A stretch of 64,000 nt of DNA from contig NZ_AP024563.1 in the NCBI RefSeq assembly GCF_018409545.1, forward strand, positions 1,194,755-1,258,754, in the 5' to 3' direction. How positions within the stretch are numbered: the first letter of the stretch is position 1; every line of letters starts with the position of its first letter. This stretch comes from Allochromatium tepidum (lineage in GTDB: Bacteria > Pseudomonadota > Gammaproteobacteria > Chromatiales > Chromatiaceae). Of the stretch, positions 25,621 through 29,188 are shown one piece after another. The notes beneath the pieces were generated by a model. The model made no database searches. It had not been told where the DNA came from and worked only from the letters and a program-made list of their open reading frames with translations. A program made the translations under genes and the position numbers.

Positions 25621-25917
25621 TTGGCTGGGCGCGTGCCGCCGTGGCTGATCCGCACCCTGCTCAGTCTCGGCCTGCTTGGAGCGCTCTTTGGCGGCTATCT
25701 GTGGTTGAGTCGCCCGCGCACGCCCGAGGCGCTGTTCAAGACCCGCTGTGCCGCCTGCCACGAGCTGCGCGTTGAGCGTCTATGCGAGTTCGCGCCCCGG
25801 CAGCGCCCGGCCATCGTCGACACCATGCGGCGTCTGCACGAGGCCGATCAGGTCATCGATGAAGAAGAGGCGGTCATCATCCGCCGCTATTTGGAGGAGT
25901 CTCTCATATGCCCTTGA
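25621..25917 (+). CDS. Small membrane-anchored monoheme cytochrome c
   Basis: The roughly 94-98 residue protein has one hydrophobic anchor near its N-terminus (LIRTLLSLGLLGALFGGYLW) and one heme motif CAACH soon after. There is no ATG: TTG 25621 and GTG 25633 are the in-frame options, and GAGGG at 25616-25620 favours GTG 25633. The stop overlaps the ATG of the Mrp gene. It probably carries one electron at the outer face of the membrane. The C-terminal half (MRRLHEADQVIDEEEA) is helical, as in single-domain cytochromes c. Confidence 0.7.
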   Translation: MAGRVPPWLIRTLLSLGLLGALFGGYLWLSRPRTPEALFKTRCAACHELRVERLCEFAPRQRPAIVDTMRRLHEADQVIDEEEAVIIRRYLEESLICP

Positions 25918-28055
25918 GCCAGATCGCTGCACCGGAACGGTCGCGGAACGATCCGGACGCGGATGCGCGCCTGGAGCAGCACCTGCTAACGGTCCTAAGT
26001 CAGATCCAGGACGCCACGCGCGGTCTGGATGTGGTGACGGACGGCCAGGTCTATGCCGTGGTCGCCACGGGCGGCGCGGTGCGGGTGCTGCTCGATCCCG
26101 AGCGCTTCCCAAGCGAGGCGGCCCAGTCCGCCCTGGCCGAGACCATCCAGACGCTGCTCGCGGACGAGTCGGGCGTCGAGCGCCTGGTGGTCAAGCCGCG
26201 TCCGCGCTCGATCTGCCTGCGTTCCGAGCTGCCGGGCGTTCGCCGTGTGATCGGCGTGCACAGCGGCAAGGGCGGGGTGGGCAAATCCACGGTCGCGGTC
26301 AACCTGGCCCTGGCACTGGCCGCGCGCGGACTCCAGGTCGGCCTGCTGGATGCCGATGTCCACGGCCCCTCGGCGCCGACCCTGCTCGGGCTCTCGGGCC
26401 GGATGGAGACCACACCCGATGGTATGCGGGTGCGCCCGCTGGAGCGGCACGGGCTCAAGGTCGTCTCGCTCGGCTTCCTGCTGCCGGAGACCAAGGCCCT
26501 GATCTGGCGCGGCCCGCTGGTCGAGCGCGGGTTGGCGCAGTTGTTCACCGAGGTCGATTGGGGCGAACTGGACCTGTTGCTTGTCGATCTGCCGCCCGGT
26601 ACCTCCGACGTGCATCTGGAGGTCGCGCGCCAGGCGCCGCTGGCCGGTATCCTCACCGTCACCGCGCCGGGACAGGTCGCGGTGGACGACGTGCGGCGCG
26701 GGATGGAGATGTTCGCGGATCTGACGGTGCCCTGTCTGGGGATCGTCGAGAACTTCGCCGGTCTGGTCTGCGGTCGCTGCGGAACCGAGAGCGCCTTGTT
26801 CGGCGCGGGCGGCGGCGCGGAGCTGGCGACGCTGACCGGCCTGCCGCTGCTGGCGCGGCTGCCCTTCGATGCGGCGCTTGCCGAGGCGTCCGATGCCGGA
26901 CGTCCGCCGCTGGTGGCGAGTCCGGAGACGGCGGCGAGTGCCTGGTTCCAGGCGCTGGCTGGGCGAGTCGCCGGCAGGCTGGGTCTCGATCAGGCGGACC
27001 AACCAGAAGGGTATGCCATGCGTGCCCGACGCACTGTGTCGGCGGAAGCCGTGCCAGTGCAGTCCCCCGAGGAGACCGGGCCGATGGACTGTCGCGCGGA
27101 CACCATGCGCCGGACCGAGCCGCCGATCCCCATCCCGGTTCGCTCCGGCACCAGTCAAGCCCCCATCAACCCGGAGCCCGATACGGCCCCGGGCTATGCC
27201 GAGCCCGGCGAGCCCATCCCCGGTGTGCGCGATGTCGTCCTGGTCGCCGGCGGCAAGGGTGGGGTCGGCAAGTCCACGGTGACGGTGAATCTGGCCTGCG
27301 CCCTGCGCGTCCAGGGTCTGCGCGTCGGCGTGCTGGACGCGGATCTCTACGGCCCCTCCATCGCGCGGATGCTCGGCACCGACACCGAACTGGAGCAGGA
27401 CGCGGCAGGGCGCGCCATCCCCGCCGTCGGCCACGGCGTTCACAGCCTCTCGATCGCCCAGCGCATCCCGCCCGAGGCGGCCCTGGTGTGGAAGGGACCG
27501 CTGGTGACTCAGACCCTGATGGACATGGTCTATGGCGTCGCCTGGCCGGATCTGGATGTGCTGCTGGTCGATCTGCCGCCCGGCACCGGCGACGTCCAGC
27601 TCAGTCTGCTGGAGCGTCTGCCGGTCAGCGGGGCGGTGCTGGTAACCACGCCGCAGCGGCTCGCCCAGGTGGACGCCGAGCGCGGCATCGCACTCTTCCA
27701 CGAGTTGGACATCCCGGTGCTCGGGGTGATCGAGAACATGAGCCATCCGGTCTGTCCGAGCTGCGGCGAGCCCATGCCGCTGTTCCCGGATGCGGACGTG
27801 CGCGCGCTCGCCCGCCGCCGTCACGTCCCCTATCTGGGCCGCCTGCCGCTCGATCCCGCCGGACAGGTGCTCGCCGACACCGGCCGTCCCCTGGTCGAGG
27901 CGCTGCCCGAGAGCGCCGCCGCCCGGACCTTCCAGGAGTTCGCGCATCAACTCCGCGCCGCGCTGGAGCGGGAGGCCGAGGCCGCCTTGCGCAATGCCGA
28001 CCCCAACACCCGTGCCGCACACGCGGCCTTCTGGGAACGTCTGATCGAGGATTGA
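25908..28055 (+). CDS. Double Mrp/NBP35-type iron-sulfur carrier ATPase (tandem fusion)
   Basis: The 715-residue protein holds two complete Mrp domains. A short MIP18-like N-terminal region (LEQHLLTVLSQIQDATRGLD) precedes the first P-loop, HSGKGGVGKSTVAVNL (about residue 119), with LLDADVHGPSAPTLLG, VDLPPGTSD and CGRC. The second domain has GGKGGVGKSTVTVNL (about 447), LDADLYGPSIARMLG, VDLPPGTGD and CPSC. Both keep the Cys pair that holds the transferred Fe-S cluster. A Pro/Glu-rich linker (about 365-440) joins them. Mrp proteins dimerise, so this fusion is a covalent dimer. It may load clusters into the operon's enzymes. Confidence 0.92.
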   Translation: MPLSQIAAPERSRNDPDADARLEQHLLTVLSQIQDATRGLDVVTDGQVYAVVATGGAVRVLLDPERFPSEAAQSALAETIQTLLADESGVERLVVKPRPRSICLRSELPGVRRVIGVHSGKGGVGKSTVAVNLALALAARGLQVGLLDADVHGPSAPTLLGLSGRMETTPDGMRVRPLERHGLKVVSLGFLLPETKALIWRGPLVERGLAQLFTEVDWGELDLLLVDLPPGTSDVHLEVARQAPLAGILTVTAPGQVAVDDVRRGMEMFADLTVPCLGIVENFAGLVCGRCGTESALFGAGGGAELATLTGLPLLARLPFDAALAEASDAGRPPLVASPETAASAWFQALAGRVAGRLGLDQADQPEGYAMRARRTVSAEAVPVQSPEETGPMDCRADTMRRTEPPIPIPVRSGTSQAPINPEPDTAPGYAEPGEPIPGVRDVVLVAGGKGGVGKSTVTVNLACALRVQGLRVGVLDADLYGPSIARMLGTDTELEQDAAGRAIPAVGHGVHSLSIAQRIPPEAALVWKGPLVTQTLMDMVYGVAWPDLDVLLVDLPPGTGDVQLSLLERLPVSGAVLVTTPQRLAQVDAERGIALFHELDIPVLGVIENMSHPVCPSCGEPMPLFPDADVRALARRRHVPYLGRLPLDPAGQVLADTGRPLVEALPESAAARTFQEFAHQLRAALEREAEAALRNADPNTRAAHAAFWERLIED

Positions 28056-28056
28056 G

Positions 28057-28444
28057 GGTCAACTACCCCGCCCTGAAGGGCGGAGCTTGTGAGAGCAAGC
28101 TGGGTTGACCAGCCTCAGCCCGCCTGACCGGGACGGTCGAAAGGGGCTCCGTGTGCAACAGGTCGTCAAGACTCACCGGCGGATGCTTCCTCAGTCCGCC
28201 GCTCTGAAAGGCCCGGACCATGCTGACGAAAGGTAAAGCGTCGAAGGTTCGGGTCGCCGCCGTCAGGCGGGAGCCGGTGGCACACATTGGCGAGGGGAGC
28301 GTGTCGCGTCGTGAGACGCCGCACCGTCACCAGGCCCTTACGGGCAGAGCCTCACGGCCCGGCAGGTGGAAAGCCTGCATCCGTTTCCGGCGGCTGCACG
28401 GTCGTAGCCGCTCTCCCTCCCCGCCCTGAAGGACGGGGTTTCTC
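28057..28444 (+). mobile_element. IS200/IS605-like non-autonomous element (no transposase or nuclease ORF)
   Basis: The left end is a compound foldback: GGTCAAC (28057-28063) pairs with GTTGACC (28104-28110) around two hairpins, CCGCCCTGAAGGGCGG (28068-28083) and GCTTG/CAAGC (28085-28100). The right end carries a matching hairpin, CCCCGCCCTGAAGGACGGGG (28419-28438). Near-identical subterminal palindromes at both ends are typical of IS605-type elements mobilised by a Y1 transposase. No ORF lies between. It sits just after the Mrp stop and ends at the ribosome site of the next gene. Confidence 0.65.
28111..28418 (+). ncRNA. Candidate structured RNA (omega/HEARO-like) inside the IS605-like element
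   Basis: The interior is packed with hairpins of which the arms can be read directly: CGGCGGA with TCCGCCG (enclosing an 11-nt loop, about 28161-28185), CCGCC/GGCGG, GCGTC-GTGA-GACGC, GCCC-TTAC-GGGC, GCAGG/CCTGC and GCGGCT/AGCCGC. Such density without an ORF suggests a structured RNA rather than decay. Position after the left end fits the HEARO/omega RNA of IscB elements, which may occur without their nuclease gene. The strand assignment is tentative. Confidence 0.45.
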
Positions 28445-28456
28445 GCGGAGGAACTG

Positions 28457-29188
28457 ATGACCGAACTCTACTTGTACCTGAATCGGCCCCTGCCCGAGGG
28501 GCTGGATCCGCAACGGCTCTCCGGACTCGCCGGGCTGGTGGTCGAGGCCGGCTGTCTCAGCGCGCGCGAGGCCGGCACCCTGCCTGCCCCAGTCGCCGCG
28601 CTCTGCATTCCGAGTGCGGATGCGCAAGCGGACTGGGACGCGAACGCCGCCCCGGCGTGTGTGGTCGACGCCGGACTGGACGCCTGCGCCGCCCTGCGCG
28701 ACGCCCAGCCGGAGCGCAACTGGCTGCCGCGCCTGACCGTCTATCCGCAGGAGGTCAGCTACCGCATGGCCAATTACAGCGGCGAAGGCTTCAAGTTCTT
28801 CACACCGGACGCGGCCACCATCCACGGCTATCGGGTCACGGATGGCGACCGTCTGCTGATTCCGACCCTCCGGCGTGCCCGTGACCTGGGCTTCGAGCAG
28901 ATCTGGCTGCACGCCCGCGAGGCCGAGCGACGCGGTCGGGGGTTGGATCTGGATCTTCTGGAGCGAGCGCGGGCCGAGTATCCCGAGGGGCTCTGGCTCT
29001 CCGGCGGAGCCGCCGAAGCGCGCCATCTTGAGAACCTCACCCGCGAGGGCGGGGCGGATGGGGTGGTGATCGGGTTCGACCTGCTTCAAGCCGTCGGTGT
29101 GGAGGCACTGCTGGCGGCCCTGGCCCCACCGCGTCCGCCCGAGGTGTCCGTCGCTCTGATGCCTCGTTCGGGTCATGCAGCCGTCTGA
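28457..29188 (+). CDS. Protein of unknown function in the molybdoenzyme operon
   Basis: The 243-residue soluble protein has no signal peptide. The C-terminal half (SGGAAEARHLENLTREGGAD then GVVIGFDLLQAVGVEALLAA) resembles the last strands of a TIM-barrel phosphate-binding site. A motif-like central stretch YPQEVSYRMANYSGEGFKFF is not recognised. The ribosome site GGAGG is the final sequence of the IS605-like element just upstream. It overlaps the start of the following rhodanese-like gene by 14 bases. I would not assign a function. Confidence 0.75.
   Translation: MTELYLYLNRPLPEGLDPQRLSGLAGLVVEAGCLSAREAGTLPAPVAALCIPSADAQADWDANAAPACVVDAGLDACAALRDAQPERNWLPRLTVYPQEVSYRMANYSGEGFKFFTPDAATIHGYRVTDGDRLLIPTLRRARDLGFEQIWLHAREAERRGRGLDLDLLERARAEYPEGLWLSGGAAEARHLENLTREGGADGVVIGFDLLQAVGVEALLAALAPPRPPEVSVALMPRSGHAAV

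Follow-up and report, generated by a model that had tools for sequence, protein, structure and literature searches.

An ORF-less element between two operon genes

The window, which is the whole stretch of 64,000 nucleotides of Allochromatium tepidum DNA analysed here, contained an ORF-less IscB-type (IS200/IS605-like) element between two co-directional genes. The upstream gene (25908..28055, + strand) was assigned from its domain matches as a tandem fusion of Mrp/NUBPL-type P-loop ATPases. Its ORF encoded 715 aa, and a weak match to FeS_assembly_P (iron-sulfur assembly) was seen at the N-terminus. This gene was the likely source of read-through transcription over the element. The downstream gene (28457..29188, + strand) encoded 243 aa with a weak His_biosynth match (HisF-like/TIM-barrel), and its start was conserved beside the native leader in two congeners. 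A position amid an operon had been proposed by an earlier sequence-only reading and was borne out by these two genes.

The borders were set by alignment to the other copies in the genome. These aligned from 28058 to 28460 with the final four bases, ATGA, as the target, so the element itself covered 28058..28456 on the + strand (399 bases). It had previously been drawn at 28057-28444. The location was right, but the right end missed the last 12 bases (to 28456), which were those bearing a Shine-Dalgarno (SD) motif. The ATGA tetramer (28457..28460, + strand) was both the start codon of the downstream gene and the predicted target-adjacent motif. On the other side, the left flank (28042..28057, + strand) was host sequence that held the downstream gene's native ribosome-binding region, now displaced, and it was predicted to serve as the guide. 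In two congeners with an empty site, it directly abutted ATGA. IscB guides are about 16 nt long.

Two near-identical terminal hairpins and a gene-free interior had also been described, and both were found. The left-end hairpin (28067..28083, + strand), with CCCCGCCCTGAAGGGCGG near 28067, doubled as the omega RNA's first inner stem-loop, in which columns 11-16 paired with columns 21-26. The right end (28409..28456, + strand) consisted of the hairpin CCCCGCCCTGAAGGACGGGG near 28418-28437, followed by GTTTCTCGCG and then GAGGAACTG. Between the two hairpins no gene was encoded by an ORF. A concealed gene was rejected, since no iscB-type ORF was present and the longest ATG-started frame was below 90 aa in the 14 genome copies. 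An internal promoter or terminator was rejected as well, since a consensus scan of 27700-28700 gave no promoter- or terminator-like site.

Positions 28058-28305 (+ strand) matched the Rfam HEARO model RF02033 over its full length (model positions 1-211 complete) with 103.9 bits and E = 2.6e-20, above the gathering cut-off of 83 bits. It was the sole Rfam match in the window. HEARO RNAs and their role as IscB guides are known (PMC9755519; PMC9581776), and the region was assigned as an IscB omega RNA scaffold. The omega RNA region continued in a 3' extension (28306..28347, + strand), which was homologous by blastn to the stretch immediately preceding the iscB start codon of the iscB-bearing copies. 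The + strand folded with -205 kcal/mol (z = -3.3), better than 100/100 shuffles. A chance foldback was ruled out by the covariance match, the shuffle folding and the 14 genomic copies.

Copies in the genome and iscB-bearing relatives

The genome of the host, 3.38 Mb in two contigs, carried 14 full-length ORF-less copies on the main contig. They were 89-100% identical, and 0/14 had iscB. Degenerate copies were also present, mainly on the second contig. RRXRR matches were found at five places in the genome, four of which were full domains. Three loci (L013, L014 and L020) were 1.7-kb elements with a 449-aa frame carrying RRXRR and HNH domains (IscB), and L024 was a truncated iscB copy with a 113-aa remnant. 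The sequence-only reading, which had taken the element for a stand-alone omega/HEARO RNA copy of an IscB-type element and had proposed the covariance model and a genome search for full copies with iscB as checks, stood because the covariance match was strong and the genome held the 14 ORF-less copies and about four iscB-bearing relatives. Docking at start codons and the SD end went beyond that reading.

The two classes were compared by alignment. The foldback hairpins of both ends aligned to the iscB-bearing copies. Over element bases 1-290, identity to the iscB-bearing elements of the same genome was about 70%, and the right-end hairpin showed 92-97% identity (element bases 352-390). By blastn, bases 1-290 of the element aligned to bases 1-271 of the iscB-bearing elements, in which the iscB ATG was at 282. 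The iscB frame started just where the RNA part common to both classes stopped. This meant that the ORF-less class kept the omega RNA in full along with both ends and lacked the nuclease gene. The element is a non-autonomous derivative and no complete ISC member.

The closest iscB-linked omega RNAs were about 70% (own genome) to 78% identical, so the cognate pairing between the RNA and IscB was not certain. An iscB-bearing element as the direct parent of the ORF-less class was rejected, as the best omega RNA match was only 78% identical. ORF-less copies with the SD end were seen in congeners with iscB; none was seen in the three without iscB.

Insertion before ATGA and at start codons

ATGA directly followed 14/14 full-length copies. 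Congeners were searched with the joined flanks of each copy, and uninterrupted empty sites were found for 10/14. When these were aligned base by base, the left flank ran into ATGA without a duplicated or lost base at 10/10 aligned sites. The window's own site, which was empty in two congeners, was one of the 10. In the 2009 HEARO paper, integration was reportedly before ATGA or GTGA.

In at least 10/14 copies, the ATGA was the start codon of a gene. Nine docked genes were intact. They were those for FliL, an ABC permease and SurE, the window's own 243-aa gene, and those for a nitrate-reductase-gamma-like protein, a radical SAM protein, DUF2304, an acyl carrier protein and Hcp (prismane). The family models began at residue 3 (SurE, DUF2304, prismane) or residue 6 (acyl carrier protein). 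In the case of the tenth site, L016, the gene was frameshifted in this genome, and the intact 284-aa gene of a congener started at the same ATGA. L011 may be an eleventh start-codon site, with its frame also broken. No evident start codon was found at L010, L017 and L018, the last of which lay inside response-regulator-like sequence. L017 was located just past a tRNA gene. L024, the truncated iscB copy, docked at the start of a DUF29 gene (model from residue 3).

The number of start-codon sites was compared with two nulls. Start codons made up 25.6% of start plus intergenic ATGA sites according to crude gene calls. Under this null, 10/14 gave P = 4e-4 (crude) and 9/14 gave P = 0.003. Under a null counting every window gene as ATGA-started, the values were P = 8e-7 and 1e-5, respectively. 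The radical SAM (AmmeMemoRadiSam-like) site was filled both in L022 and in a congener (G103:C1:1736813-1737209), and it was the only shared insertion noticed.

A similar trend was observed outside this genome. About 90 right ends from other Chromatiaceae were read without requiring ATGA. Nearly all were followed by ATGA, which was very often a gene start, and the docked genes included SurE again, TusD, GrpE, YqgE, UbiG, UbiA, RNase PH, PheS and GlgB. Four Halomonadaceae IscB elements (L237, L238, L239 and L241) ended exactly before the ATGA start codons of genes for an ACP phosphodiesterase, GreB, an SDR reductase and a C45-family enzyme. These four had a different right end, GTATCCCGCGCAAAATCTG.

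The Shine-Dalgarno end and the micro-elements

The element carried the SD motif GGAGG at 28447..28451 (+ strand), 5 bases before the ATG. The ORF-less class (386-390 bases) ended in GCGGAGGAACTG, with the variants GAAGAACTG and GAGAAACTT, and GCGGAGGAACTG was an SD motif at the correct spacing from ATG. In contrast, the iscB-bearing copies ended in GCGCAAGACTG or GCGCAATGCTG without an SD motif. The pattern GA[GA][GA]A was present in 25/25 ORF-less SD-class copies examined and was missing from the iscB-bearing copies. A second ORF-less class, in genome G057, was also without the motif. In a sample of 369 genomes of the class, the SD-type right end was matched exactly once outside the family, in another family. 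The SD end may have arisen only once, since the SD-class copies descend from a common ancestor.

The predicted guides were examined for the native ribosome-binding sites. An SD-like motif at the correct distance was found in 17/25 SD-class copies, compared with 24% of control ATGA sites (P = 4e-6). Given these motifs in the left flanks and the SD end, the native ribosome-binding region seemed to have been moved upstream, where it would now be the guide, with the element offering a substitute. The end of the element thus appears to replace the ribosome-binding site of the gene.

Micro-elements of 46 bases were also identified, in which the left-end hairpin was fused to the right-end tail. They were found at five loci (L065:1493, L185:2577, L188:2580, L191:2560 on the - strand, and L194:2545), directly before the ATGA of an open frame. 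Two further ones were present in this genome, at G000:C1:2559007 and G000:C2:114916. They look as though they arose by recombination between the end hairpins, which are nearly the same in sequence, and would persist as scars in the leader.

Proposed mechanism

We considered it probable that a non-autonomous IscB-type element is mobilised in trans here, that a guide RNA made by read-through is directed against the element's empty site, and that translation of the host genes is preserved. That the element moves, guides and leaves docked genes translated is what we infer from sequence comparison. An IscB-type IS200/IS605-like element would have lost iscB and kept both ends and the complete omega RNA. 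A transposase presumably acting in trans would insert it exactly 5' of ATGA, and the exactness of insertion was seen directly at the empty sites. As ATGA frequently serves as a start codon, the majority of the surviving copies would lie between the native leader and the ATG of a gene. Since the element is oriented with transcription, read-through starting at the host promoter would yield an omega RNA with the host's own leader as its 5' guide. The guide of an IscB system precedes the omega RNA scaffold on its 5' side (PMC9755519). As expected from known IscB biology, an IscB encoded elsewhere in the genome could load this RNA and cut a sister allele without the element. Only the empty allele would be cut because the guide adjoins ATGA there, and the filled site reads guide-GTCA. 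An NTGA target-adjacent motif was measured for IsrB, a relative of IscB (PMC9581776), and the predicted ATGA motif of the element fits it.

The last bases of the element held an SD motif, which would be used for translation of the downstream gene. Insertion could therefore be nearly harmless even before essential genes, for example that of the acyl carrier protein, because the element brings this motif.

A further-reaching proposal is that these copies form a selfish, guide-RNA-only family adapted to translation starts. Such a family would bring its own SD motif, use the native site as guide, be retained through the nuclease of another element and leave 46-base scars. In an adapted family of this kind, recombination between the end hairpins would remove the element and leave a 46-base hairpin-plus-SD scar as the new leader of the gene. 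We hold this proposal only tentatively, at somewhat short of even chances.

Survivorship as an alternative

The same distribution might arise by survivorship alone. In this case, the target is ATGA, insertions within genes are purged, and the SD-like end is incidental. This is compatible with the other parts of the explanation by a guide-RNA element moving in trans. It was favored by the iscB-bearing copies, which were also mostly at start codons without an SD end, and by the four Halomonadaceae elements. However, start codons were more frequent than expected even when compared with intergenic ATGA sites (P = 4e-4, with crude gene calls), and the SD end was fixed in the ORF-less class. We judged survivorship alone to be rather unlikely.

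Conservation of the omega RNA

The omega RNAs of 17 ORF-less copies from several genomes were compared. Compensatory changes on both sides were found in 17/80 pairs, compared with a shuffled mean of 7.5. Standard pairs made up 98.4% of the pair cells, and slid structures never gave more than 2 compensatory pairs. Such changes support selection on the omega RNA of the ORF-less copies, as judged from sequence covariation, of which some may predate the loss of iscB.

This bears on a second alternative, a MITE-like parasite in which movement depends on the ends alone and the omega RNA, a mere passenger, has been in decay since the copies multiplied in a recent burst. Movement of IS200/IS605 elements needs only the ends, and the copies were young and similar. 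The 60-base stretch separating the omega RNA from the right end was conserved like the RNA core in the young copies of this genome (92.4% vs 91.9%). Because these non-RNA bases were as conserved as the core, much of the conservation is explained by recency. Micro-elements that had lost the RNA entirely were also found at start codons. However, the fold was kept by compensatory changes in ORF-less copies of several genera, and the HEARO scores of the ORF-less copies (100-108 bits) were as high as those of the iscB-linked ones (about 101-106). A decaying passenger was considered improbable on this evidence.

A domesticated 5' leader, through which the host regulates downstream genes by means of the RNA structure and the newly gained ribosome-binding site, was regarded as very improbable. 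In its favor, the element pointed the same way as the gene and stood directly before its start codon at the majority of sites, and a short CTC-GCG-GAG pairing in the predicted fold could cover the SD motif. Against it, the sites were mostly unshared between congeners (empty at 10/14), only the radical SAM site was filled in two genomes (L022 and G103), and no pathway common to the downstream genes was evident.

Relation to known elements

The explanation by a guide-RNA element moving in trans was compared with known systems. The element was like HEARO RF02033, or the IscB omega RNA, in its full-length match, its fold and its left-end position. However, no iscB followed the RNA, and about 100 bases and the right end were found instead. 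Stand-alone omega RNAs that are used by IscB in trans are known (cited in PMC9581776). They are likewise ORF-less, with IscB encoded elsewhere in the same genome. Unlike them, this was a complete and precisely inserted element with both ends, about 14 copies, start-codon docking and an SD end.

The Chromatiaceae and Halomonadaceae ISC elements with IscB have the same kind of ends and the ATGA target, often at start codons. They differ in encoding IscB (about 449 aa) and in ending in GCGCAAGACTG or similar without an SD motif. Non-autonomous IS200/IS605 derivatives (MITE-like, palindrome-associated) share the foldback ends, the lack of target duplication and the presumed movement in trans, but what set the element apart was its conserved guide RNA and its ribosome-binding site. 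The new part would be the docking at start codons with a self-supplied ribosome-binding site. A literature search for HEARO or IscB with ATGA or a start codon gave nothing relevant, but key papers were outside its reach, so the priority of this docking is uncertain.

With many copies, distinct natural guides and exact empty sites in relatives, the family could serve as a natural test of transposon guide RNAs in trans. Its own ribosome-binding site may be a way for a mobile element to make insertion at the starts of essential genes tolerable. Such insertions could rewrite 5' leaders, with 46-base scars left behind.

The genome contained six Y1_Tnp genes, none of which was clearly paired with the ends of the ORF-less element. 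A tnpA clearly of this element family was not found in the search, and the nearest candidates were L038 and L039. These two were divergent tnpA/tnpB-like IS605 elements with a similar right end, which was followed by GTAA and not by ATGA. The transposase acting in trans may come from these elements or be related to theirs.
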